64,000 bases of DNA from an uncultured Arenicella sp. (lineage in GTDB: Bacteria; Pseudomonadota; Gammaproteobacteria; Arenicellales; Arenicellaceae), in contig CALINO010000015.1 of NCBI GenBank assembly GCA_938045295.1, positions 1 through 64,000 of the forward strand. Direction: 5' to 3'. Under the pieces are notes generated by a model. The model worked only from the letters and a program-made list of their open reading frames with translations, searched no databases and was not told where the DNA came from. Each line of letters opens with the position of its first letter. Position 1 is the stretch's first letter. The translations under genes were made by a program, and so were the position numbers. Of this stretch, positions 34,849-50,004 are shown piece by piece.

Positions 34849-36591
34849 ATGTCAGACCAGACTCAAGCCCCATCTGTATTACTAATATCAGATGACACTA
34901 ATGTCGTGGAAGCCATTATCAGTGGCAACTCAACCGATCTCACTATTAATGCGCGTGAGACCGTTGCCGACGTTTTAAAAGAGAAAGAGCTATTTGAAAA
35001 CAATGCGATTGTAATTTTTGATTGCGACTCAAGCGGCGATAATATTAATAAAGCCATTGACCAAGCGGTTAGCATTAAAAAGGCCGACCCGACTCAAGTA
35101 TTGATGATGGTTGGTGAAAAAGAAACCTTGGGTGAAATATTAAAATCAAGCATTCAGCCGATTGTTTACCGTGCATTTAACAAGCCGGTTGGCGGCAATC
35201 AAGTGTTTTTGGCGTTTAAATCAGCACTGTCACTGCACGAAGAATTGGTGGCAAAAAAGGAAGCTGGCGAAGACATTATGGTGGTGGGGCCAGCAGAAAA
35301 TCGCGCCAACCTTGAGCAGCTTGCGGCACAGCGAAAAACCAACCCGTTGATTTACGCTGGCTTAGGTTTGCTGGCATTAGGCCTAATTGCCTTTCTGCTT
35401 CTTGGCGGTGATAACGAGCCTGAACAACAAGTCATTGTTGATAACTCGTTAAACATAGAACAAGCGGCTGAAGAAGAGATCAATGAGGCGGTAACTCAAA
35501 CTAACGATTTGAATCAACAGGCGGCCAATGCATTACTCGATGGGCGCTATGTTTCTCCTAAAGGCGATAATGCGCTGGAATATTACAACCAAGCATTGCA
35601 GATTGACCCATACGATTCCATTGCCTATGAAGGCAAAAAAACCATTGCGGCTTACGTGCGCTCAAACTACGACACTTTAGTATCTGAAGCCAAGTTTGAC
35701 GAAGCCTTAGACGCGGTTAATGCCTTACGCGCCATTGAGCCACTGAACTTAGAGAATGATAAGTTAAGCGAAAGCCTCAGCGCCTCAATTAACGAACACG
35801 TCAAAAAGGTACGTGCATCTGGCACCCAAGAAGAAGTCGCAGCGACCAGCGCCGTACTGGCAAAACTGGGAGATCTTGAAGGCGCTGAATCCGCCACTAA
35901 AGCTCTACAAGTTGAGAAAAAATTGCTTGAAGACATTGATGCTGCTATCGCGTCGGGCAACCTTGTGCCACCGAAAAAAGGCAATGCATATCAATTGGTA
36001 TCATCAGCGTTAAAAGGCAATAAAATTAGCCGCGCTAACTCCGACCCCAGAGTGGAGTTATTAAGTGAGAAGTTAATTGCATTGGCTAACAGCAACCTTA
36101 GTGAGAGCAATTTAGAAGAAGCCGTTAAACTGTCGGCCTTGGTAAAACGTATTCGTTTGAATAGCGACGATGAAAGCTTAGATAAATTAAACGAAGATAT
36201 TAAAACCAAGCGCGAAGCCATTGCCAAAGAAAATGAAGATAAAGCGGCTGAGGATGCACAAGTAGAAGAGCAAGTGGCTAAGGTGGAAGAAGCAAAGCCG
36301 GAACCGCCTAAGTTAATTCCAGCGAAAATTATTTCTCGAGAACCTCCGCGCTACCCGAACCGCGCTTTGAAAAAGAACACCGAAGGTTGGGTGAAGGTTG
36401 TGTTTGCGGTTGATACCAGTGGCAAACCATTCAACATACAAGTGGTTGAGTCAGAGCCAAAAAACATCTTCGATGACGCCGCGGTAAAATCGGTTAAGAA
36501 ATGGCGCTTTTCTCCAGCCAGAAATCAAAAAACTGGCGAAGCGGTTGAAACCAAATCAATTTCAACCAAGGTACAATTTCGCTTAGGGTAA
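34849..36591 (+). CDS. Receiver-like / transmembrane / TonB C-terminal fusion protein
   Basis: A 580-residue protein with an unusual architecture. Residues 8-130 look like a response-regulator receiver: acidic pair D15-D16 (LLISDD), candidate phospho-acceptor D58 (VIFDCD) and K112-P113 (AFNKPV). A single membrane span (about 166-187, PLIYAGLGLLALGLIAFLLLGG in part) follows. A long helical, tetratricopeptide-like region comes next (ALEYYNQALQIDPYDSIAY). The end is a TonB C-terminal domain (PPRYPNRALKKNTEGWVKV, AVKSVKKWRFSPA). With no signal peptide, the receiver should be cytoplasmic and TonB periplasmic. GGGAGG precedes the ATG. It lies near the nine-gene TonB operon. A cytoplasmic signal controlling TonB-type work is inference. 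Confidence 0.82.
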   Translation: MSDQTQAPSVLLISDDTNVVEAIISGNSTDLTINARETVADVLKEKELFENNAIVIFDCDSSGDNINKAIDQAVSIKKADPTQVLMMVGEKETLGEILKSSIQPIVYRAFNKPVGGNQVFLAFKSALSLHEELVAKKEAGEDIMVVGPAENRANLEQLAAQRKTNPLIYAGLGLLALGLIAFLLLGGDNEPEQQVIVDNSLNIEQAAEEEINEAVTQTNDLNQQAANALLDGRYVSPKGDNALEYYNQALQIDPYDSIAYEGKKTIAAYVRSNYDTLVSEAKFDEALDAVNALRAIEPLNLENDKLSESLSASINEHVKKVRASGTQEEVAATSAVLAKLGDLEGAESATKALQVEKKLLEDIDAAIASGNLVPPKKGNAYQLVSSALKGNKISRANSDPRVELLSEKLIALANSNLSESNLEEAVKLSALVKRIRLNSDDESLDKLNEDIKTKREAIAKENEDKAAEDAQVEEQVAKVEEAKPEPPKLIPAKIISREPPRYPNRALKKNTEGWVKVVFAVDTSGKPFNIQVVESEPKNIFDDAAVKSVKKWRFSPARNQKTGEAVETKSISTKVQFRLG

Positions 36592-38373: not shown

Positions 38374-39366
38374 TTAGCCCATGGCAATTGCGGTGTCTAA
38401 CATACGATTCGAAAAACCCCATTCGTTGTCGTACCACGCTTGAATTTTTACTAAGCCACCAGCAATACGCGTTTGATCAATGTCAACAATGCAAGATTCG
38501 GGGGCATGATTAAAATCGATGCTCACCAATGGCCGTTCATTAATAGCGAACACGCCTTCTTTGCCTTGCGCGTATTCTACAAAGATATTCTTTATTTCTT
38601 CTTCATTCACCGGCTTAGTTGGTACAAAAGTGAAGTCCAACAGAGAAACGTTCAGCGTAGGCACTCGCACCGCAACCGCGTCTAACTTGCCGTCCAATTC
38701 TGGAATAACAGAACCAATGGCTTTAGCTGAGCCGGTGGATGTAGGGATCATAGAGTAATTAGCCGCTCGACCTCGACGCTTGTCTTTATGATAAGAGTCT
38801 AATAAGTTTTGCGTGTTTGTGTAGGCATGAACCGTATTGGCTAAGCCCGACACAATACCGATTGAGTCGTTCATGGCTTTGGCGACATGCGCCAAACAAT
38901 TGGTGGTACACGACGCGTTAGACACTAGCCGTTGCTCGGCCAACAGTGTCGTTTCGTTTACGCCGTACACAACGGTGTTATCTAAGCCCTTGCCGGGCGC
39001 CGAGACCAATACTTTTTTTGCCCCGGCCTGTAAGTGTAAGCTGGCTTTTTCGTTGCTTCTAAAAAAACCGGTGCACTCCAACACCACATCAACCTCCAAG
39101 TCGGCCCAAGGCAATTTGCTTGGATCTCGTTGGTTGAACATGGCAATACTTGCGCCATTCACTGTCAAGCTGTCGTCGGTATGAGAGACTTGAGCATTAA
39201 AACGGCCGTGCGTGCTGTCAAATGACAACAGATGAACGTTGGATTCAACCGGAGCTAAATCATTAATAGCCACCACTGACACCGCTTCTTGGTAGCCGTT
39301 TTCATAAAGTGCACGCAATACATTCCGACCAATTCGACCAAAGCCATTGATTGCAATCTTAATCAT
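38374..39366 (-). CDS. gap: Type I glyceraldehyde-3-phosphate dehydrogenase (Gap/Epd clade)
   Basis: A 330-residue NAD-dependent dehydrogenase. It has the Rossmann start INGFGRIGRNVLRAL, an acidic residue for NAD preference in VVAINDLAP, and the catalytic Cys in VSNASCTTNC. The substrate-site His is in VHAYTNTQ, and the C-terminus is WYDNEWGFSNRMLD. PLVSIDFNHAPES and VRVPTLNVSLLDF place it in the clade that includes erythrose-4-phosphate dehydrogenase as well as some GAPDHs, so Epd activity for vitamin B6 synthesis cannot be excluded. The neighbouring pgi supports a glycolytic role. Confidence 0.9.
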   Translation of the reverse strand: MIKIAINGFGRIGRNVLRALYENGYQEAVSVVAINDLAPVESNVHLLSFDSTHGRFNAQVSHTDDSLTVNGASIAMFNQRDPSKLPWADLEVDVVLECTGFFRSNEKASLHLQAGAKKVLVSAPGKGLDNTVVYGVNETTLLAEQRLVSNASCTTNCLAHVAKAMNDSIGIVSGLANTVHAYTNTQNLLDSYHKDKRRGRAANYSMIPTSTGSAKAIGSVIPELDGKLDAVAVRVPTLNVSLLDFTFVPTKPVNEEEIKNIFVEYAQGKEGVFAINERPLVSIDFNHAPESCIVDIDQTRIAGGLVKIQAWYDNEWGFSNRMLDTAIAMG

Positions 39367-39406
39367 AGAAATACTCCGTCATTTGTTACTGCTGTGTGAA
39401 TAATAA

Positions 39407-39430
39407 AAAAGCACGCCGAAGCGTGCTTTT
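39407..39430 (-). terminator. Terminator of the TonB/TtpC operon
   Basis: AAAAGCACGC, the loop CGAA and GCGTGCTTTT form a perfect stem with A/T tails. It lies between the last ExbD gene and gap, all leftward. It therefore closes the nine-gene operon and separates it from gap-pgi, which need their own promoter. Confidence 0.92.
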
Positions 39431-39452
39431 CATACGTCAACTCAAAACTGAA

Positions 39453-39863
39453 CTAGTTCTTTGCTAACGAAATTGTTGGTGAAGGAACACCCGCCGCCTT
39501 AATGCCATCAACCGCTGCAATAATTGCTTTAGTTTTTGCCTTGCCTTCGGCTTTAATAATCACCGACGACTCTGGGCGCTCAGCAGTTAAGCGTGTGATT
39601 GTTGATTTAATTGCACGCGCATCAAGCAAACGATCTTCGACACGAATCTCACTCAAATTATTGATTTCAACAATAATTGGCTTTGCGTTAATGTCTTCCG
39701 GTGGATCATTGGTTACTGGCGGCTTATTTAAATCTAAGCCCGATTCTTTTACGAAACTGGCGGTAACGATAAAGAAAATAAGCATGATAAATACCACGTC
39801 CAACATAGGGGTGATATCGATATCCGCTTCTTCTTCGGTTTTTTGTTTACCAAGTCTTTTCAT
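39453..39863 (-). CDS. ExbD/TolR family protein, second copy
   Basis: A 136-residue inner-membrane protein with one span, part of a proton-driven motor complex with ExbB-type proteins. The span carries the essential Asp in DITPMLDVVFIMLIFFIVTAS, given in parts: DITPMLDVVF and IMLIFFIVTAS. The periplasmic part ends with VDGIKAAGVPSPTISL. It is clearly a paralogue of the ExbD at 44283-44687, with an almost identical membrane segment but a divergent periplasmic domain. It is the last gene of the operon, 29 bases after the second TtpC gene. Confidence 0.93.
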   Translation of the reverse strand: MKRLGKQKTEEEADIDITPMLDVVFIMLIFFIVTASFVKESGLDLNKPPVTNDPPEDINAKPIIVEINNLSEIRVEDRLLDARAIKSTITRLTAERPESSVIIKAEGKAKTKAIIAAVDGIKAAGVPSPTISLAKN

Positions 39864-39892
39864 TATTTAATCCTCACTAACTTGAGCCTAGC

Positions 39893-41314
39893 TTAACCTA
39901 GGCTCTCGTATTTTTCTGCCACCAAGCCTGCGGCTTGCTCCTCTAAAATGCCTTCGACGCTCTTAGCCCTGCTGGAAACAATCCAGTGTGCAAACACCGT
40001 AGGTATCGCAACAACTAAGCCAAGAACCGTAGTTACCAAGGCCTGAGAAATACCGCCAGCCATGGTTTGTGGGTCACCGGCACCAAACAAGGTAATCGCT
40101 TGGAAAGTCTGAATCATACCGGTCACGGTACCCAGTAAACCTAGCAGAGGTGCAACCACGGCGATGATCTTAATGAACATCACCCAACGGTTAATCTTTG
40201 GTGATTCTTTTAAAGTGGCTTCAGCCAGCTTAAGTTCTAATGACTCAGGGTCAGATTGAGGATTGTCTTGATACACCTTAATCACTCGACCCAATGGGTT
40301 CTTCAGTGATGGGCGTTTCATATCACGCGCTTGCTTTTTAACCGAGGCTTCAACCCCCATTAACATTAAGAAGCGTAACACGGCAATCGCCAAGGCAATT
40401 AAGCCTAGACCGATAATCACGTAACCAACCACACCACCTTCATCAATTTTTTCCGCTAATGAAGGTTTTTGCACGAATGCGGCCAATAAACCACCGCGGG
40501 CTGGGTCAAGTTTAAACGCGGTAATGCCAGAGCTTGCGTTTTGCAATGCGTTTGAGCCATCAGTAAAGCTTGAGCCCATTTGGCGCTCTAACGCCACCAA
40601 ACCACGCTTATTATCAAACCTAACAATGTCATCGCCAGACACCAAGTTGAATGCGCCAACTCGAGTTACTTTTTTATCACGCTCCTCGTACAGTGCCGTT
40701 CGAGTTGCCTTGCCTTCGTCGTCAACACCGTCTTCATAGCCTGTTAAATAAGAAACAGGCGCATTATAGCTAATGACTTTACCCTGCTCAGTCATCTCAT
40801 TTTGCAGCTGAACCCAGAGGTCTTCGATTTCATCGATTTGCACCAGCTCAGTTAAGCTGGCCATCTTTTCAACCATTTGACGAAGGTTTTCAGCACGCTC
40901 GGGGTATTGAGCACTGATAATAGATGTTTTGTATTCTTCTTGCGCTTCTGAAGCTGACAACTGAATAACACCAAACAACTGTTTTAGGTCACCCAATTCA
41001 CGCGCTAACTCTTCTTGCAGTTCAGCGAGCTTGACATCGTTAGCGTCAAATTGACTTTCAAGGCTGGCGGAGATGTTTTCTTGCCGCACTCGCTCATTCG
41101 TCATTGAGCGTAATCGACCTTGCTCTTTGTTTAAGTTGGCTTTAAAGCGACTCTCACGAGCACGTTCAGCATTGCGGTCTTTGGTTGCACCAGACTGAGC
41201 GGCACGCAGCACGCTGTCAATATTCATTGTTTGCGCATTAGCGGTAGTCGTAATGCCCAAAGAAGTGAATGCAAGTACGCCCGTTATCGCGGCGGTTTTT
41301 AATAGGTGTTTCAT
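39893..41314 (-). CDS. TtpC-like long ExbB/MotA-TolQ protein, second copy
   Basis: A 472-residue protein. The ATG at 41314 follows the DUF3450 stop as TAATATG; the longer frame beginning at 41335 overlaps that gene and is unlikely. A signal peptide (KHLLKTAAITGVLAFTSLGITTTANAQ in part) is followed by a periplasmic coiled-coil region of about 200 residues, then a first membrane span (GYVIIGLGLIALAIAVLRFL). The ExbB core follows: VAPLLGLLGTVTGMIQTFQ and GISQALVTTVLGLVVAIP. This is the TtpC architecture of Vibrio TonB2 systems. It is paralogous to the protein at 45379-46716. Confidence 0.92.
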   Translation of the reverse strand: MKHLLKTAAITGVLAFTSLGITTTANAQTMNIDSVLRAAQSGATKDRNAERARESRFKANLNKEQGRLRSMTNERVRQENISASLESQFDANDVKLAELQEELARELGDLKQLFGVIQLSASEAQEEYKTSIISAQYPERAENLRQMVEKMASLTELVQIDEIEDLWVQLQNEMTEQGKVISYNAPVSYLTGYEDGVDDEGKATRTALYEERDKKVTRVGAFNLVSGDDIVRFDNKRGLVALERQMGSSFTDGSNALQNASSGITAFKLDPARGGLLAAFVQKPSLAEKIDEGGVVGYVIIGLGLIALAIAVLRFLMLMGVEASVKKQARDMKRPSLKNPLGRVIKVYQDNPQSDPESLELKLAEATLKESPKINRWVMFIKIIAVVAPLLGLLGTVTGMIQTFQAITLFGAGDPQTMAGGISQALVTTVLGLVVAIPTVFAHWIVSSRAKSVEGILEEQAAGLVAEKYESLG

Positions 41315-41315
41315 A

Positions 41316-42098
41316 TTAAATAGTCTCCGGCGCAATAATTGGAAGAGTCATCAGATTAGCAGGCGCTTTACCTTGGCTAATTCGAATCGCTTGAGCTATG
41401 CCTTCACTGTGAGAAGAGTCTAACTCTTTCCACTGCTTATTTGGCTTGTCCCAATAGCCCGACTCACCACCATCAATGGTTTGATAGTACAAGCCAGCAC
41501 GACCTACTTGCAGAATATTAACCGTACGCTTGGCACCGTTAATGTCTAACTCTTCAGTATAGACATCAACCGTTTTACCATAGTTGTTTTCGGTTGAGTA
41601 CGCTTCCAACACCTGGCGAAAACGCTCTGCCGCAGCGATATTGGCGTTGGTTAAATAGCCTTTAATGCGACTCACGCGAGCACGACGCTCTTCAAGCTTG
41701 AAAGGCATGTCGGCTTCAATGAATTTATCGAGCCCACTGATCATACGCAACATTAGCGGTACAATTTGACGCTCAATCAACGACGCATCTTCGATTGAAC
41801 GCTCCAACTTAGTCATGGCAACGGTCTGAGCTTCAAGTGTGCGACGCATGCGATCATTATACTGTTTCAACACATCAACACTCTTGCGCTGTTGATGGTA
41901 TTTAGTAATCACTTTCTCAGTATCTTCCGAGATTTTATCAATGCGTTTCTGCGATGCGGTGGCCGTTTTACCACGCGCAACACCGGCGCGAACAATATCA
42001 TCGGTTTGGTCAGCCCAAGCGCTCAAAGGCATTAGCGAAACTAACGCTAATCCGAACACGCCTGTTTTCAATTTTGCCTTAAGTACTGATGTACTCAT
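41316..42098 (-). CDS. DUF3450 periplasmic protein, second copy
   Basis: A 260-residue exported protein: signal peptide ending SLMPLSAWA, then a coiled-coil stretch (residues about 45-120) and the family core DKFIEADMPFKLEERRARV, VGRAGLYYQT and the final PIIAPE. DUF3450 genes are regularly found just upstream of TtpC/ExbB genes, and the product is thought to belong to that complex; its biochemical role is unknown. A copy at 46718-47419 has the same order and the same leader sequence, ACAAGAGGTTAAGT, before the start. Its last codons contain the CGGAG that serves the next gene. Confidence 0.9.
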   Translation of the reverse strand: MSTSVLKAKLKTGVFGLALVSLMPLSAWADQTDDIVRAGVARGKTATASQKRIDKISEDTEKVITKYHQQRKSVDVLKQYNDRMRRTLEAQTVAMTKLERSIEDASLIERQIVPLMLRMISGLDKFIEADMPFKLEERRARVSRIKGYLTNANIAAAERFRQVLEAYSTENNYGKTVDVYTEELDINGAKRTVNILQVGRAGLYYQTIDGGESGYWDKPNKQWKELDSSHSEGIAQAIRISQGKAPANLMTLPIIAPETI

Positions 42099-42200
42099 AC
42101 TTAACCTCTTGTTTTAATTCGCTCTAACCTAGAGGTTAGAGTGTATTTATTTTGTTGTTGTGTCGTGATAATCACAGACCAGAACCAAAAACGGTACGTT

Positions 42201-43574
42201 TTATGTCGTCTTTGGTTCGACATCAGTACTGATGACAATTTCTTTTTTCAATTCTTCTTCACGCTTCATTTCAGCCTGAACATATTTAATCCAGTTGCCG
42301 GCCGTGGCCGCTGATTTTTCATAACGTAAGGCTTTGTTGAAGGTTTCTAATGCCGACTTAGGCCGCTTGAGCTCAAACTGAACCAAACCAAGGCTGATCA
42401 TAGTTTGACCGGTGTCACGCAACTTGCCTTTTGACAGCGCTCTTTTCAAAGCACCTTCAGCATTACGCCATTGATTCAAGTTAATGTAAGCTTGCGCTAA
42501 TTGGTCATCAATTTTGCCATCTTTGGTATTCAACTTAGCCGCTTGAGCTAATGGGTCAAGCGCCTTTTCATACTCTCTGGCGGCAAACAATGCTTGCGAG
42601 TACGTGCGGTAGTTTTTCAATGTTTTCTTGAACACACCCGACTTAAAACCTTCTTCCATAATGCTGGCGGCTTTATAAGGGTTGTCCAAGTTCATCATTA
42701 ACGAACTGACTGTATTTAATTCAGACTCACTCTTCAGCAAGCCATTGTCATACATGCCTAGGTACAAACCACCCATGCTCTGATAATCATCAAGCTCATT
42801 GAACACGTAACCCAAAGACAATAAATAGTTCTTCTTCGGGTAATGCCTTACCAATTGCTTAACCACTGGCAGCATCTTTTTATACTCGCGCTTCTCACGA
42901 TAAATACTGCTTAAAAGATTCAACCAGCCCTCTTTAGGAGTGCTGCCCAACTCTTTGTACTTGCTGATCCCTTTTTGTACATTCGGCAACGCATTGTCGT
43001 ATTGCTTAAGCTGATAATACGCTTGGCCAATCAACATATAAGCATCGGCCGACGGATCTTCTTGAGTTTTAAACCAACGCTGAGCATACGACAGTGCTTC
43101 TCGGTAGTTTTCTTGTAAAAACAATACCTGAGCAACTTGGTATAACATTTGGTTTGAAAAGCCCACCGAAATGCCATCTTGAATATTGGTCACCGCTTTA
43201 AACTCACGCAGCGCGCAGCCTAAATTATCTTGATTCAAGCAGATGCTGCCATTGAAGTTATGGTAGTAGGCCTTCTCGATATTATTCAAATCAGGCTCAG
43301 CACCCAATTTTCGTAATAATGCTTTGGCGCCATTAAGGTCTTCAGCATCCAGCGCAGCACTGATTTTCTCAAATGATTTTACGTGCTTAGCGCGTATCGA
43401 TTCTACTCGACGAGTTTTCCTCTTAGGGGCATCGTTTTGTGCTTGCACCACTTGTGATTCAAACACCGCCGTTTCTAAACCGGCGGATAATGGCAACACT
43501 AACGCGGTGAGCATTAACGGTTTAATAACCGCCTTCACTGCTCGCGTGATACTTACTGTGTTAATACCAGTCAT
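42201..43574 (-). CDS. Periplasmic TPR-repeat protein of the TonB operon
   Basis: An exported protein of about 457 residues. The start is taken at the ATG at 43574 with AAGG about 9 bases upstream; a GTG lies three codons earlier. A signal peptide is followed by a charged stretch, then many tetratricopeptide-type helices: EDPSADAYMLIGQAYYQLKQYDNAL, read in parts, SSIYREKREYKKML, KIDDQLAQAYINLNQWRNAE and LGLVQFELKRPKSALETFNKAL. A TPR protein directly after tonB2 is a known feature of the Vibrio TonB2 cluster, where it is required for full function. It probably scaffolds the complex in the periplasm. Confidence 0.87.
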   Translation of the reverse strand: MTGINTVSITRAVKAVIKPLMLTALVLPLSAGLETAVFESQVVQAQNDAPKRKTRRVESIRAKHVKSFEKISAALDAEDLNGAKALLRKLGAEPDLNNIEKAYYHNFNGSICLNQDNLGCALREFKAVTNIQDGISVGFSNQMLYQVAQVLFLQENYREALSYAQRWFKTQEDPSADAYMLIGQAYYQLKQYDNALPNVQKGISKYKELGSTPKEGWLNLLSSIYREKREYKKMLPVVKQLVRHYPKKNYLLSLGYVFNELDDYQSMGGLYLGMYDNGLLKSESELNTVSSLMMNLDNPYKAASIMEEGFKSGVFKKTLKNYRTYSQALFAAREYEKALDPLAQAAKLNTKDGKIDDQLAQAYINLNQWRNAEGALKRALSKGKLRDTGQTMISLGLVQFELKRPKSALETFNKALRYEKSAATAGNWIKYVQAEMKREEELKKEIVISTDVEPKTT

Positions 43575-43675
43575 ATTGTTCACCTTTTTATACTCATTTT
43601 GACGTTAATATTTCATTGCTTAGCAATAAACGTAATGACGGCCTACTAAATAAAGCCGTCACTTAGGTTAACGTC

Positions 43676-44278
43676 TTAACAATTTCCACCTTCCATTTCG
43701 AACTTAATTCGAATTGGAACGTTTGGCACATCAACAGGCTTACCGCCCACTTGACGTGGCTTATATTTATATTTCAAAGCCGCTTTCACCGCCGCTCGCT
43801 CAAACATTTTTGACGAACTTGACGTTACTACCGCATCGCGAGTACCGCCGGCTGCAGTCACGGTATACATTAACTCCACCCAGCCACACAAACCGCGTTC
43901 AGCAGCTCGGCGAGGGTATACAGGCGGTGCACGAAATACCGGAAGGTATTCACCGTCATTAGAGTTAAAACCTTTGGTACTGGTGTTAATACCAATTTTT
44001 ACTGCGCCTAATGCTAAGTTTGAGTCAATATCAACCTTGTCTGGAACAACATCGTTGTCAGGCAAATCAGGTTGCTCTTGAACCTCGTCAGGGCGTTCAG
44101 GTTTTGCGGTAATCGTTTCTACGTCTTCATTTTTAGGGATGAATGAAAACTCTGGCAACTTCAGCGCTTTGGACTTTTCAAGCTCAGGCTCGTCCATTTT
44201 GATCAACGCGTACATCGCAATGATCAAACCCAAAGTAACGAAAATCGCGATAATAAATGATGAAAAAGATCTAATCAT
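43676..44278 (-). CDS. TonB2-type energy transducer
   Basis: A 200-residue TonB protein: N-terminal membrane anchor (FIIAIFVTLGLIIAMYALI), a short acidic/Pro-rich periplasmic linker (PERPDEVQEQPDLPDND) and a C-terminal TonB domain (FRAPPVYPRRAAERGLCGWVELMYTV, in parts; AAVKAALKYKYKPRQVGG). The short linker is the pattern seen for TonB2 proteins. It delivers energy from the ExbB/ExbD motor to outer-membrane receptors. The start is 4 bases after the ExbD stop. No TonB-dependent receptor gene is in this window, so the substrate is unknown. Confidence 0.93.
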   Translation of the reverse strand: MIRSFSSFIIAIFVTLGLIIAMYALIKMDEPELEKSKALKLPEFSFIPKNEDVETITAKPERPDEVQEQPDLPDNDVVPDKVDIDSNLALGAVKIGINTSTKGFNSNDGEYLPVFRAPPVYPRRAAERGLCGWVELMYTVTAAGGTRDAVVTSSSSKMFERAAVKAALKYKYKPRQVGGKPVDVPNVPIRIKFEMEGGNC

Positions 44279-44282
44279 GATT

Positions 44283-44687
44283 CTACTCCGACTTCGTTGA
44301 AACGCGGGTTACTTCAATGCCAGCATCTCGCAACTTGTCAACCACTTCCAGCACAGCTTCGGCTTCAGAATTAATATCCGCCTGCACCATTATCTCGCCT
44401 TCCGGGTTTTCAGCGCGCAATCGGCCCAAATTAGCCTTAATGGCTCGCGGGTCGATTTGCTGACGATCTAACCAGATGTCATTATTTTCATCAATTGCCA
44501 GCAAAATACTTGCTCTGGGGCGCTTTTCAGCGTTCTCAGCTTCTGGCTTAGAAATTTTGGCACCACTCTCTTTAATAAAGCTTGCAGTGACGATGAAAAA
44601 GATAAGCATGATAAAAACCACGTCCAACATCGGCGTAATGTCGATCTTGGTATCGTCGTCTTGTCTGCTTCTAGATGCTCGTCTCAT
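44283..44687 (-). CDS. ExbD/TolR family protein, first copy
   Basis: A 134-residue partner of ExbB in the proton-driven complex. After a basic, Arg-rich cytoplasmic N-terminus (RRASRSRQDDD), the single span contains the essential Asp within KIDITPMLDVVFIM. The periplasmic domain ends DKLRDAGIEVTRVS. It is 78 bases downstream of the short exbB and 4 bases upstream of tonB, so it is the direct ExbD of the TonB2 module. Confidence 0.94.
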   Translation of the reverse strand: MRRASRSRQDDDTKIDITPMLDVVFIMLIFFIVTASFIKESGAKISKPEAENAEKRPRASILLAIDENNDIWLDRQQIDPRAIKANLGRLRAENPEGEIMVQADINSEAEAVLEVVDKLRDAGIEVTRVSTKSE

Positions 44688-44765
44688 TTAGTTTCTCCTA
44701 GTTTGAATCGGCGCTTATCACGCCGTTCAAAAATGATAAGGATGTTCGTTTAATCCACTGACCGA

Positions 44766-45290
44766 TTAATGATCCAGTGTTAAATGCTCGTTAATCAATT
44801 CGCGCTCTTGTTCAGCCTTACGCTGCAACCAAAAACTTAAGAACAAGCCCGAAAGAGCCGCCACCATGCCAGCCATAGTAGGCACTGTCGCACGCGACAC
44901 GCCACCGGCCATTGCACGAGCATTACTCGTACCGGTTACGGCCATTACCTGGAACACTTCAATCATGCCGGTTACGGTACCCAGCAGGCCAAACAATGGT
45001 GCTAATGCCACACATGCTTGAATCATTGAAAGGTTTTCACGCAATTTTAATGCCACATTCGACACCAATTGCTCACGAACTTGATGGGCTGCCCATGAGC
45101 TACGCTCACTGCGCGACTCCCATTCGTCAAGCGCGTTTTTAACTGCTTTTTTATGGGGGCCATTGATGTAAAAGATGCGCTCTATAATCATGTACCACAT
45201 GACTATAAGCAGACCTGCAATCAAATAGAGTACCGGGCCACCGAGCTCCATAAAATCGCGGATGTACTCGAAGATAGCTGTAATATCCAT
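44766..45290 (-). CDS. ExbB2-type biopolymer transport protein
   Basis: A 174-residue short ExbB. The first span (GGPVLYLIAGLLIVMWYMII) is followed by a cytoplasmic loop and the MotA/TolQ/ExbB core CVALAPLFGLLGTVTGMIEVFQ with GGVSRATVPTMAGMVAALSGLF. It is shorter than E. coli ExbB, as usual for TonB2 systems, in which TtpC is an additional large ExbB-like partner. It lies between the TtpC and ExbD genes, as in Vibrio. Confidence 0.94.
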   Translation of the reverse strand: MDITAIFEYIRDFMELGGPVLYLIAGLLIVMWYMIIERIFYINGPHKKAVKNALDEWESRSERSSWAAHQVREQLVSNVALKLRENLSMIQACVALAPLFGLLGTVTGMIEVFQVMAVTGTSNARAMAGGVSRATVPTMAGMVAALSGLFLSFWLQRKAEQERELINEHLTLDH

Positions 45291-45378
45291 CTTATTGAAA
45301 CCTCTGTCTCTTGGTTAGTGGCCTGAATTCACTGTTTATTAACAACAAATTCAGACCAAACTTAGAGACCGAGAGCAA

Positions 45379-46716
45379 TTAGCTCTCGATCTTACGTGCA
45401 ACCATACCGGCTGATTGCTCTTCCAAAATTTCTTCAACGCGCTTGGCTTTTGAAGCCGCAGCGGTATGAAGCAATACGATTGGAATAGCCACAACCAAGC
45501 CACAAACGGTGGTTACTAGCGCTTTAGAAATACCGCCAGCCATTAGTTTGGGATCACCGGCACCGAACAAGGTAATAGATTGGAAAGTATCAATCATACC
45601 CAACACTGTACCTAGTAGACCGGCCAATGGCGCAACGACAGACACAATCTTTAAGAACATTAACCAAGACGTTAGTTTTGGCGTTTCTTTCATGATCGCT
45701 TCTGACAAACGCAATTCAACCGCTTCCGTTTCATTGCTGTCAGTGTCTTCAGCCGCTTTTAATACTCGGCCAAGTGGGTTCTTCAAGCTAATGCTTGATG
45801 GGTTGGCCGCTTGTTTTTTAACCGCCGCAGACACACCAAACAATGTGATGATTTTGATGATTGCAATGATTGCCGCAATCAAACCTACACTCAAAATGAT
45901 GTAACCAACGATGCCACCTTGCGCCACACGCTCACTCAAACTTGGGTTTTCTACCGCTGCTTCAAGCAGAGTGCCCAATGTTGGGTCAAGAGCAAAGTTA
46001 GCCGTGCCCGTTGAGTTGAATAAGTCGCCCGCTTGAGATAAGAAACGGCCGTCAGGTTGACGTGGCAAGTCAGCCACACCACCAGCACCGTAAGTTAAGA
46101 ACTTACCGTCGCCGATCAGATTAAATGCACCAACACGAACCACTTGTTGGTCTTCGCGGTTGCCCGCAGCGGTTGCCACAGAAGCAGTGAACTTAGCCAC
46201 TTTACCTTGCTGCACCATTTCGTTGAACAGTGACTTCCACAATGATTCAATTTCAGCGGCACTTACCAACTGATTTGACTGGTTAGACACTTTCTGAGAA
46301 ATAGCATCAAAATTCTTTGTGCGATTCGGGAATTGCGCTGAAATGATTGAACCATCAAACATGGCATCGGCTTCACCAACAACTTGCTGAATGGCACCGA
46401 ACAACTCTTTCAAATCACCCAAAGATTGCTGACGATCGTTACGAACTTTAGTTAAAGCCTCATTGTTAACCGTGTACTGCTGCTCAAGCGCCTCGCTTTG
46501 TGCTTCAAGAGAGGCACGTTGAGTACGAAGCTGTTGCAACAAATTAGCTTTACCGGCGCCGGCACCAGCAAAACGCTTTTGCAGGTCTGACGCTTGTTTG
46601 CTTTGTTCAAATGAACCACTCTTAACTTGATTAAGCAGTTGGTCTACGGTTTGTGATTGCGCTGGCGCAACAATAATAGCGGCTGCTAACGCAACACTAG
46701 ATAATAAACGCTTCAT
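45379..46716 (-). CDS. TtpC-like long ExbB/MotA-TolQ protein, first copy
   Basis: A 445-residue protein from the ATG at 46716, one base after the DUF3450 stop (TAATATG) with GGAGGG upstream. It has a signal peptide (KRLLSSVALAAAIIVAPAQSQ, in part) and a coiled-coil periplasmic region with long helices (LLQQLRTQRASLEAQ). The first membrane span is GIVGYIILSVGLIAAIIAI. The ExbB core follows: VAPLAGLLGTVLGMIDTFQ and GISKALVTTVCGLVVAIP. In Vibrio, TtpC is essential for TonB2 but not TonB1 transport. It precedes exbB-exbD-tonB as in those clusters. Confidence 0.93.
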   Translation of the reverse strand: MKRLLSSVALAAAIIVAPAQSQTVDQLLNQVKSGSFEQSKQASDLQKRFAGAGAGKANLLQQLRTQRASLEAQSEALEQQYTVNNEALTKVRNDRQQSLGDLKELFGAIQQVVGEADAMFDGSIISAQFPNRTKNFDAISQKVSNQSNQLVSAAEIESLWKSLFNEMVQQGKVAKFTASVATAAGNREDQQVVRVGAFNLIGDGKFLTYGAGGVADLPRQPDGRFLSQAGDLFNSTGTANFALDPTLGTLLEAAVENPSLSERVAQGGIVGYIILSVGLIAAIIAIIKIITLFGVSAAVKKQAANPSSISLKNPLGRVLKAAEDTDSNETEAVELRLSEAIMKETPKLTSWLMFLKIVSVVAPLAGLLGTVLGMIDTFQSITLFGAGDPKLMAGGISKALVTTVCGLVVAIPIVLLHTAAASKAKRVEEILEEQSAGMVARKIES

Positions 46717-46717
46717 A

Positions 46718-47419
46718 TTACGCGCCCTCCGGAGCATTAATAGTTAAGCTCAATAGTTCTGGCGCTACTGTTTTTGCCGCCACTTTGATTGCCTTACGGA
46801 TTTCACGATTTTCACTGCTTGGCAACACTTTCCATGTCTTATTCGTGTTGTCATACATGGCCGATGTTTTTTGATCTTTAGTTTGATAATACAAACCCAC
46901 TCGACCCACACGCAGCATGTCTACCGGCGTTTCTTGACCGTCGATATTCAGCACTGAGTCATACGCCTCAACTGTAGTACCGTACTCTAACTCAGCGGAG
47001 TAGATATCCATGATGCTGCGAAAACGCACAGACGTACTTGCTGTTGTATCAACCATTAAGTTTTTAAGAAGATTAACGCTCTTTTGACGCTCTTCCAACT
47101 TGAAAGGCAAGTCTGCTTTCACGAACTTATCTAAGGCAGACACCATTTTGCCCAACAATGGAGCAACTTGTGGCTCTAAACCTTGGGCTGATTGAATAGA
47201 CGCCTGAATTTCAGTATTTGCTTTTGATTGCGCCGCAATTTGGTCTTTAAGCTGGGCGTTATAGACTTTCAAAGCTTCTACTAACTTTAACTCACGCGCA
47301 AATTCACTATCGACTGACGAACCGCCCGCCGACTGCGCCCACCCAGTGGTTGCAGCGGCCGCAGCAATGGCAGTTACCGCCACTGTTCGACCAATCCAAT
47401 TCAACACAGATTTTTTCAT
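46718..47419 (-). CDS. DUF3450 periplasmic protein, first copy
   Basis: A 233-residue exported protein with a signal peptide (VTAIAAAAATTGWA) and an early coiled coil (LKVYNAQLKDQIAAQ). The family core DKFVKADLPFKLEERQKSV, VGRVGLYYQTKD and the ending LTINAPEG follow. It is the first gene of the nine-gene operon. It shares sequence, operon position and the leader ACAAGAGGTTAAGT with the second DUF3450 gene at 41316-42098. Function unknown; association with TtpC is known from gene neighbourhoods. Confidence 0.9.
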   Translation of the reverse strand: MKKSVLNWIGRTVAVTAIAAAAATTGWAQSAGGSSVDSEFARELKLVEALKVYNAQLKDQIAAQSKANTEIQASIQSAQGLEPQVAPLLGKMVSALDKFVKADLPFKLEERQKSVNLLKNLMVDTTASTSVRFRSIMDIYSAELEYGTTVEAYDSVLNIDGQETPVDMLRVGRVGLYYQTKDQKTSAMYDNTNKTWKVLPSSENREIRKAIKVAAKTVAPELLSLTINAPEGA

Positions 47420-48600
47420 TTTAGACTTAACCTCTTGTAATGAAATCTACTTAACTAGATTCAATGGTAATCAACCGTAAAATAGTTGATTGATTAGAAC
47501 TCACAGATGAATTAATTAACACGACCAATGCAGACAACCCTACCGAGCTTCACGTCAACCTATGACAACAAATTCAACTACAAATTAAAACTTATACTTC
47601 GCAAACCAAACCTTCCAGCCCTTAACCGGAATAAAGCAAGTAAGAATACTTTCTTGTTTACATTCAGCTTACTGATTAACAACACGTTCAGTGATTTTTA
47701 AAATAGTTAGCGTTGAGCAACCATTCAAAAGCACACACAAACCACGCCCATGCAGACAAACGCGCATGCGCGAGTCAGCAGACCAAAAGGCAATAGGGCA
47801 AATACAACAGACAAAGAGTAAGTCAAAGGAGCGTAGCGGCGAATATCACCACAACGAAAGAGAAAGAAAGTCTCGCCGATTAAAAGCTACCGCCCAAACA
47901 TGGGAACGGAGGTAAACGGAAAAGCATAGTCAAAGATGTCATCACCGACACAGTTTACTTTTCTATTAACTGCAAAAAATTACACACGTAATTAACGCAG
48001 ACAAACTAATAATCGCAAACACGCAACACACAGCAATGAAATCATCGCCATTACTGACAAATGCCAGCACAGTTGCACGCCATTTTGTGACTTTGAGCTG
48101 ATTTAAACATTGCACATACACCAGCAATAAATACTGATCTGCCACAAAGCAAAAACGCTGTCGCCACAAAAGAGGCTTCTTCTTCTCCTAAGGCTTTCAC
48201 CTACCAAACTTGAAAGCGATGCGCCATGTAAAACAGCCAAATCATCACAAGCAATGTCTAACGTAGATTTTATCTATTATAACTGCCTCGTCTTACCGCA
48301 AGGCTTTTGCCTGCTGAACGATTTTTAACATCTCTCAACAAGCGCAATACAACACATGAGTTCAAATTAATAACGCAAGTGCTTTATATGCTGGAACAAT
48401 AACATTTACTAAAAATGAGTCAATACTCTTTTTCAATTAACACTGTATAACCAACATAATTGGGGAACCAATTCTAACAGCGAAGTAATGCTAGGTCACG
48501 ACTCTGTTAAAATTTTTTCACACATAATTAAACAAAATGTCTGCCTTTGTAAATCTTCTTAATTTTCACTCCAGCAAGAAGCTTACCCAGACAACTGCAA
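47420..48600. other. 1.2-kb region without convincing genes
   Basis: The region between the DUF3450 start and the gltX stop, both leftward, contains only short frames without recognisable features. I see no tRNA, terminator with a T tract, or Fur-box match. The operon promoter is expected within the first few hundred bases above 47420. The stretch 47425-47438 (acttaacctcttgt on the plus strand) is the leader motif shared with the second DUF3450 gene. The rest is AT-rich and could be a long 5' leader, an untranslated RNA or decayed sequence. Confidence 0.5.
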
Positions 48601-50004
48601 CTAACTTTGCAATTTCTGCGAAAACGCCGCCTGACCGGCTTTTAGCCGCTGCAAACTCACATCTCGCCCCAACTGCGTCAATGTAGCATCGATTGACGGC
48701 GACATTGTACTGCCCGTGACAGCAATTCGAACCGGCTGAGCCACTTTAGCAAAGCCAACTTCATTCTCATCCACCACTGACTGAACACAGGCTTGAATGT
48801 CTTCGGCCTGCCATTCAGACAACGCTTCGAGCTTCTCAATTAAGGCTGCGACCAAACTGTCGGAACCCGCTTTAATCCACTTTTTCAACGCCGCTGAATC
48901 ATAGGCTTCTATATCAGAGAAGAACCAACGCGATTGTTCCACTACATCAATTAAAGTTTTACAACGTTCTTTTATTAGGTCAATGGCATTGTGCGAGTAA
49001 TCACTGGGCTTCACTTCAAGCCCAGCTTTTGAAAAATGCCACTGACTGGCGCTCAATAACTCTTGACCACTGAGCGCTTTAATCTTCTCTTGATTTACCC
49101 ACAATAATTTTTCCGGGTTAAACGTTGACGGCGCCTTACTCACATCTTCAATTTTAAACAGCTCAAGCAATTGTTCACGCGTGAACAGCTCCTGATCGCC
49201 GTGCGACCAGCCCAAACGAACTAAGTAATTCAATAAGGCATCCGGCAAATAACCATCATCGCGATATTGCATCACACCCACCGCACCATGGCGCTTTGAC
49301 ATGCGTGCGCCATCTTGGCCTAAAATCATGGGCACGTGCCCATACAACGGCAATTTCGCTCCTAATGCGTGCAAAATATTAATTTGCCTAGGAGTATTGT
49401 TAATATGATCATCACCGCGAATAACGTGAGTAATGCCCATGTCCATGTCATCCACAACCACGGTTAAATTGTAGGTGGGAACGCCATCAGGGCGCGCAAT
49501 GACTAAATCATCTAATTCCTGATTTGAGATGGCAATATTGCCTTTCACCACATCGTTGATAATCACATCACCGTCAGTCGGATTTTTAAAGCGAACCACC
49601 GTAAGTTCTGATTCTGCTAAACCCAATTCTCGACAACGACCGTCATACTTAGGCTTTAAGCCTTTCGCTTTCTGCGCTTCGCGCATTTCATCTAAGCGCT
49701 CTTTACTGCATTCGCAATGGTAGGCATGACCGTCATTTAACAGCTGCGCAACCACTTCTTTATAGCGATCAAAGCGCTGAGTTTGATAATACGGCCCCTC
49801 ATCGTAATCCAAACCGAGCCACTGCATGCCATCCAAAATGGCTTGAACCGACTCTTGGGTGGAACGTTGCAGGTCAGTGTCTTCTATTCGCAACACAAAT
49901 TTGCCGCCTTGTTGGCGAGCGTGCAACCACGAATAAAGTGCAGTGCGTGCACCACCAATATGTAAGTAACCAGTTGGACTGGGCGGAAAACGAGTAATAG
50001 TCAT
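48601..50004 (-). CDS. gltX: Glutamyl-tRNA synthetase
   Basis: GltX charges tRNA-Glu for translation and tetrapyrrole synthesis. The 467 residues match the bacterial enzyme. The HIGH-type motif is PPSPTGYLHIGGARTALYSW and the KMSKS-type motif is DGARMSKRHGAVGV; IEDTDLQRS and the anticodon-binding C-terminal half are also typical. It is distinct from GlnS in this window. It starts divergently from the PTPS-like gene, with 72 bases between them holding a TATAAT at 50041-50046 for the opposite gene. Confidence 0.97.
   Translation of the reverse strand: MTITRFPPSPTGYLHIGGARTALYSWLHARQQGGKFVLRIEDTDLQRSTQESVQAILDGMQWLGLDYDEGPYYQTQRFDRYKEVVAQLLNDGHAYHCECSKERLDEMREAQKAKGLKPKYDGRCRELGLAESELTVVRFKNPTDGDVIINDVVKGNIAISNQELDDLVIARPDGVPTYNLTVVVDDMDMGITHVIRGDDHINNTPRQINILHALGAKLPLYGHVPMILGQDGARMSKRHGAVGVMQYRDDGYLPDALLNYLVRLGWSHGDQELFTREQLLELFKIEDVSKAPSTFNPEKLLWVNQEKIKALSGQELLSASQWHFSKAGLEVKPSDYSHNAIDLIKERCKTLIDVVEQSRWFFSDIEAYDSAALKKWIKAGSDSLVAALIEKLEALSEWQAEDIQACVQSVVDENEVGFAKVAQPVRIAVTGSTMSPSIDATLTQLGRDVSLQRLKAGQAAFSQKLQS

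Follow-up and report, generated by a model that had tools for sequence, protein, structure and literature searches.

The window analysed here is a 64,000-nucleotide (nt) stretch of an uncultured Arenicella sp. genome (contig CALINO010000015.1, positions 1 to 64,000, of assembly GCA_938045295.1; 2.99 Mb, 92 contigs), and it carries a TonB2-type operon in which the genes for TtpB, TtpC and ExbD occur twice. Nine intact open reading frames (ORFs), close together or overlapping, run on the minus strand from 47419 to 39453. Their order is TtpB (a DUF3450 protein)-TtpC-ExbB-ExbD-TonB-TtpD (a TPR protein), then DUF3450-TtpC-ExbD again; we call the first and second TtpB-TtpC-ExbD sets modules a and b.

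46718..47419, minus strand: TtpB-a, DUF3450 copy 1; 233 amino acids (aa), signal-peptide-like start, PF11932 at 206 bits over profile positions 53-238
45379..46737, minus strand: TtpC-a, ExbB-like proton channel subunit; 452 aa, PF01618 at 99.5 bits, large N-terminal periplasmic domain
44766..45290, minus strand: short ExbB, the sole one in the operon; 174 aa, PF01618 at 85 bits
44283..44687, minus strand: ExbD-a; 134 aa, PF02472 at 97 bits, transmembrane (TM) Asp at residue 22 in an MLD motif
43676..44278, minus strand: TonB, the sole one in the operon; 200 aa, PF03544 at 53 bits
42201..43583, minus strand: TtpD, TPR protein; 460 aa, several TPR families
41316..42098, minus strand: TtpB-b, DUF3450 copy 2; 260 aa, full-length, PF11932 at 249 bits over profile positions 4-240
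39893..41335, minus strand: TtpC-b; 480 aa, PF01618 at 103 bits, DUF3450-like periplasmic half and ExbB-type core
39453..39863, minus strand: ExbD-b; 136 aa, PF02472 at 83 bits, TM Asp at residue 22, diverged periplasmic domain

Pfam assigns the expected families to these proteins: DUF3450 twice, MotA_ExbB three times (452, 174 and 480 aa), ExbD twice, TonB_C and TPR. Intergenic gaps in operon order are -20, 88, 78, 4, 92, 102, -20 and 29 nt, the first being a 20-nt overlap of TtpC-a with TtpB-a. Neither ORFs nor Pfam revealed a second short ExbB or a second TonB within the nine genes. A first-pass annotation made from the letters alone had proposed this nine-gene anatomy, assigned the first six genes to the TonB2 type and saw neither a second short ExbB nor a second TonB in the duplicated module; all of this stands. 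The short ExbB evolves at or near the slowest rate in the operon, with ~93-94% identity between close same-genus genomes.

The first six genes have the order and type of the Vibrio TonB2/TonB3 cluster, ttpB-ttpC-exbB-exbD-tonB-ttpD. That cluster has been described for V. vulnificus, whose TtpD2 corresponds to TtpD in position and type (PMC6957404). The plain six-gene form also occurs in annotated Vibrionaceae (Salinivibrio) and Pseudoalteromonas records, and it is the usual structure around DUF3450 in the gammaproteobacteria we sampled. As in Vibrio-type TonB2 systems, TtpC joins an ExbB-type core to a large N-terminal periplasmic extension. The Vibrio-type cluster is further defined by iron regulation and by being essential for the uptake of siderophore-bound iron. 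Whereas the Vibrio-type cluster holds one copy of each gene, the Arenicella operon departs from it with ttpB-ttpC-exbD again downstream. Vibrio encodes its second system, TonB3, in an operon apart from the first, complete with six genes and a TonB; module b, by contrast, has neither an ExbB nor a TonB of its own. We found no description of the nine-gene arrangement in the literature searched, which was covered in part.

Phylogeny places the duplication deep in the history of the family. A concatenated tree built from 91 modules recovers a (17 modules) and b (18) as one clade each and as sisters with support 99, on stems of 0.48 and 0.50, respectively. To guard against mutual attraction of the two long stems, we also built a mixture-model tree of 45 modules, in which the a+b sister relationship has support 100. 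Single-gene trees agree, with support of 97 for DUF3450, 91 for TtpC and a weak 74 for ExbD. Since every tree pairs a with b, a single tandem duplication before the split of the two sampled carrier genera, g1 (that of the window) and g3, accounts for both, and an origin of module b from another TonB2/TonB3-type system is ruled out among the sampled systems. Copies a and b share 40% identity in DUF3450 (196 columns), 44.5% in TtpC (nearly full length) and 41% in ExbD, a similarity far in excess of chance.

Both modules are under purifying selection. Where the synonymous divergence (dS) is unsaturated, the module genes show a ratio of nonsynonymous to synonymous divergence (dN/dS) of ~0.02-0.11; in module b, dS has mostly reached saturation, and dN is 0.06-0.23. 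These comparisons leave out the pair L016/L022, in which a second TonB_C gene alters gene order. Module b evolves faster than module a for most genes: between the window and L030, dN is 0.157 versus 0.113 for TtpC and 0.110 versus 0.057 for ExbD. In the tree, the ExbD-b stem measures 1.24 against 0.44 for ExbD-a. The copies form a clade each, and we see no gene conversion between a and b. The first-pass annotation had called for a phylogeny of both copies and had named two cases that would undo its proposal, a recent, unexpressed duplicate or a fully redundant and non-conserved one. The trees return old sister clades, and the 40-45% identity, the trees and dN/dS rule out a recent or decaying copy. 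Together with the conservation described below, this makes an ancient, conserved and selected duplication of TtpB-TtpC-ExbD in a TonB2-type operon well supported.

The nine-gene order is conserved within the family. Two DUF3450 copies are present in all 17 other sampled genomes of the genus (one copy being a fragment in G005) and in both genomes of genus g3. Thirteen genomes hold the full order on a single contig: the window's own, 11 of the same genus and one of g3. In the remaining seven same-family carriers the operon is cut by contig ends and is compatible with the full order. Homologs with this arrangement come mostly from metagenome-assembled genomes (MAGs) labelled Arenicella or Arenicellaceae, the others being labelled only Gammaproteobacteria or Proteobacteria. 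G018, a 2.0-Mb assembly of another genus of the family, has no DUF3450 and no match to either TonB query used; the entire TonB2-type system may have been lost from this small genome.

Outside the family we found no close DUF3450 pair. The survey of operon structure that had been suggested drew 370 gammaproteobacterial genomes evenly, of which 83 carry DUF3450 above the cut-off (four of the 83 belong to the window genus, its own genome included), and a phylum-wide draw covered 397 genomes, 69 of them above the cut-off. Among the best 6-7 candidates scored per genome, a depth at which weak copies can be missed, neither draw contains two DUF3450 genes within 10 kb outside the family, and the closest pair in the phylum draw lies 13.8 kb apart. 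Most loci fetched from the gammaproteobacterial draw have the six-gene form; some carry a tandem second ExbD, and contig ends truncate several. Two candidate carriers were rejected. In G718 the two DUF3450 genes, 13.8 kb apart, sit in different operons, a complete one of six genes and a second represented by its start. G040 (L011) represents another family of the order, and its 3.7-kb contig nests inside the window genus; since G041, of the same genus as G040, has no DUF3450 match, contamination of the MAG is likely.

We judge it moderately likely that the operon of these marine Arenicella bacteria encodes an uptake engine of the TonB2 type served by two energiser sets (TtpB-TtpC-ExbD), both using its single ExbB, TonB and TtpD. 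The sharing of these three parts has moderate support. In this model, what the tandem TtpB-TtpC-ExbD duplication before the g1/g3 split created is a second proton-driven stator set. TtpC-b and ExbD-b would pair preferentially into a 5:2-type proton channel, and TtpB-b would pair with the related periplasmic half of TtpC-b. The module-b motor would then drive the TonB that module a drives and would probably be tuned to different receptors or conditions. What TtpB, TtpC and TtpD do, and why TonB2-type systems hold both a short ExbB and the ExbB-like TtpC, are questions on which this operon bears: that exactly TtpB, TtpC and ExbD were duplicated while ExbB, TonB and TtpD stayed single suggests which parts form a unit and which may be shared.

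Both modules retain the catalytic Asp and Thr of the channel. In E. coli, ExbB Thr148 and Thr181 and ExbD Asp25 are essential (PMC12905483). A match to the Protein Data Bank (PDB) aligns TtpC-b 377-469 with E. coli ExbB 122-214, and as both spans are 93 residues long, Thr148 and Thr181 map to T403 and T436 of TtpC-b, which are invariant in 46 TtpC sequences. The consensus sequences of the two ExbD copies have an identical TM segment, ITPMLDVVFIMLIFFIVTASF, and both carry MLDVVF with the TM Asp. The residues expected of ExbBD/TolQR 5:2 proton motors are thus in place, the Asp in the ExbD TM segment and the Thr148/Thr181 equivalents in the TtpC core. The E. coli TonB-ExbB-ExbD and TolA-TolQ-TolR motors are homologous through ExbB/TolQ and the TtpC core, with the essential Asp and Thr kept; unlike them, TtpC adds a DUF3450-like periplasmic half, and TtpB and TtpD are not parts of the E. 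coli motors.

The pore-lining segments of TtpC are nearly the same in a and b, and with the identical ExbD TM segment, the common operon and the co-conservation of all copies this would suit one obligate mixed motor. TtpC-a, TtpC-b and ExbB would then share a ring around an ExbD-a/ExbD-b pair, every copy being needed. Motors of the 5:2 kind hold two ExbD-type subunits per ring (PMC12905483), so an unlike pair is conceivable. Canonical six-gene systems, however, work with one TtpC and one ExbD, and the faster evolution of module b and the long ExbD-b stem fit specialisation better than obligate partnership. We regard the obligate mixed motor as doubtful; of the two outcomes that the first-pass annotation had raised, two alternative motors or one mixed complex, we lean slightly towards separate, specialised complexes.

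The modules differ in all three proteins. ExbD-a and ExbD-b diverge mainly in the periplasmic domain, and TtpC-b exceeds TtpC-a by ~30 residues. In every family member that carries it, DUF3450-a is missing the first 44-56 positions of the profile, so the two copies differ in architecture; judged against the DUF3450-b model, the lost part would amount to about one third of the long helix. Modules a and b are fixed for different residues at 29 positions in DUF3450, 50 in TtpC and 16 in ExbD. The effective number of codons is lower for TtpC-a than for TtpC-b in the window and most genomes checked, a difference too weak to serve as an expression proxy. A pure dosage effect, in which module b merely supplies more of the same motor, would draw on the common operon and the identical catalytic residues. 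We consider it improbable: over half of the residues differ, with 29/50/16 positions fixed differently, copy a has lost part of its DUF3450 helix in all members, and gene conversion is not seen.

Redundancy of that kind would tell against two distinct energiser sets on a shared arm, and further points weigh on the same side. Where the two copies have different fixed residues, the canonical one agrees with a about as often as with b and neither is clearly closer, so that both copies have diverged. Identical pore segments would equally allow one mixed complex, and we infer the TtpC-ExbD pairing from joint duplication only. A partner TonB absent from draft genomes can also be an assembly gap.

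Structural models suggest how TtpB and TtpC fit together. AlphaFold2 predicts DUF3450-b (TtpB-b) with a mean predicted local distance difference test (pLDDT) score of 88 as a ~100-residue helix and a beta domain, and the periplasmic half of TtpC-b with a pLDDT of 86. Both models run through a ~100-residue helix, two helices, about five strands and a helix. For one pair, hhalign aligns DUF3450 with the periplasmic half of TtpC over 190 columns (probability 85%, E 6e-6), and the DUF3450 profile weakly matches TtpC frames in several genomes (for example, 39.7 bits in G294). In a Foldseek comparison the core of TtpC-b matched TolQ and ExbB; a fold search of the PDB with the DUF3450 model gave no match at E<=0.001. 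Given the common element order and the profile similarity, TtpC is probably a DUF3450-type domain fused to an ExbB-type core. The related periplasmic fold suggests an assembly in which DUF3450 packs on the TtpC stalk.

Which TonB module b drives is central to the shared-arm reading. A second candidate lies close by, beyond GAPDH and pgi:

34849..36591, plus strand: long TonB_C protein; 580 aa, PF03544 at 67.5 bits

The first-pass annotation took it for a receiver-TonB fusion that might serve the second set. Pfam detects no receiver domain in it even at E=1. Its orthologs adjoin the operon in most same-genus genomes. In G002 (L017) the TonB_C part lies in another frame, through pseudogenisation or assembly error, and we found no clear ortholog in genus g3 (G019, G020), despite an intact module b in all three. 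This protein probably does not belong to module b as a dedicated component, and these observations weaken the proposal that it serves the second set.

The genome offers other partners. It has five TonB_C matches above the cut-off, the operon's included, and a weak TolA-like one. Among them C13, an orphan TonB2-like protein, resembles the operon TonB along its length at 35% identity; full-length matches to it occur outside the operon in some same-genus genomes and were not found in G002, G003 and G020. Also present are a further ExbB-ExbD pair flanked by ComEC-like and MsbA/LpxK-like genes (neighbour names read from sequence), a TolQRA set, a MotA-like protein and 32 TonB-dependent receptor barrel matches. 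Module b might thus drive the long TonB_C neighbour or the orphan while module a drives the operon TonB. The neighbour's conserved position, the further TonB_C proteins and the divergence of the periplasmic part of ExbD, to which current models assign binding of the TonB D-box (PMC12905483), speak for such an arrangement. Yet module b is intact in a genome with a broken neighbour (G002), in two that yielded no neighbour (G019, G020) and in three that yielded no orphan (G002, G003, G020), and the neighbour shows no receiver domain; we hold this division of labour unlikely. Of all the TonBs, the operon's own is the only one that turned up in each carrier with a contig long enough to reach it, and its presence beside module b wherever the contig allows favours sharing.

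A parallel gain in another lineage points the same way. The G398 operon (genus g254; loci L091 and L153 represent this genus) reads TtpB-TtpC-ExbB-ExbD-ExbD'-TonB-TtpD-TtpC'. In G845, of the same genus, a contig that breaks off before ExbB shows ExbD-ExbD'-TonB-TtpD-TtpC'; its TtpC' is 71% identical. Like the Arenicella operon, that of g254 has a second TtpC and a second ExbD beside a single ExbB, TonB and TtpD; unlike it, it has no second DUF3450 and its ExbD' adjoins ExbD. The two TtpCs of G398 are sisters in the tree, so this gain is independent of the Arenicella duplication, and its occurrence without a second ExbB or TonB counts for the shared arm. A tandem second ExbD without a second TtpC occurs in at least two further lineages (L095; L065/L066/L067/L099), and a search of six genomes with a tandem ExbD found no second full-length TtpC.

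A same-cluster motor paralog can have a job of its own, as Xanthomonas illustrates. In X. campestris, exbD2 is dispensable for iron uptake and needed for pectate-induced lyase activity (PMC3551730). The tonB-exbB-exbD1-exbD2 cluster resembles that of Arenicella in having a motor paralog with no second TonB or ExbB beside it, and differs in that ExbD alone is duplicated and TtpB and TtpC are absent.

A further reading, less likely than not, is a modular motor: a single TonB arm with two exchangeable or mixed heads on one shared ExbB, the head being chosen by condition or receptor. The heads might differ in their periplasmic stalk, a short-helix TtpB-a versus a full-length TtpB-b. If true, this would be a recurrent design, given the independent TtpC and ExbD gain in g254. 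The operon could offer a route to separating motor-head specificity from TonB specificity.

Four same-genus genomes (L024, L031, L032, L033) carry a third ExbD directly 3' of ExbD-b, which groups with the ExbD-b lineage.

Two hairpins accompany the operon; Rfam has no match in 39300-48700.

39406..39431, minus strand: terminator-like hairpin; 11-pair stem and T-rich tail, 22 nt past the ExbD-b stop, consensus match only
45291..45378, minus strand: long hairpin in the TtpC-a/ExbB gap, just 5' of the ExbB start; ~-34 kcal/mol alone, ~-42 with flanks

The first, with its T-rich tail, is consistent with an operon end at ExbD-b. Long hairpins recur in the place of the second in most same-genus genomes (L016, L020, L030-L034) with differing inner sequence. 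RNAalifold on a MAFFT alignment of this gap, in which the inner stem does not align, returned no pairs. A role in RNA processing or stability is possible. At the other end (47420-48600 in the window), no sizeable gene occupies the ~0.8-1.2 kb between gltX and the operon in those same-genus genomes that we checked, and the final ~45-57 nt 5' of the first operon gene are 82-96% identical across most of them.

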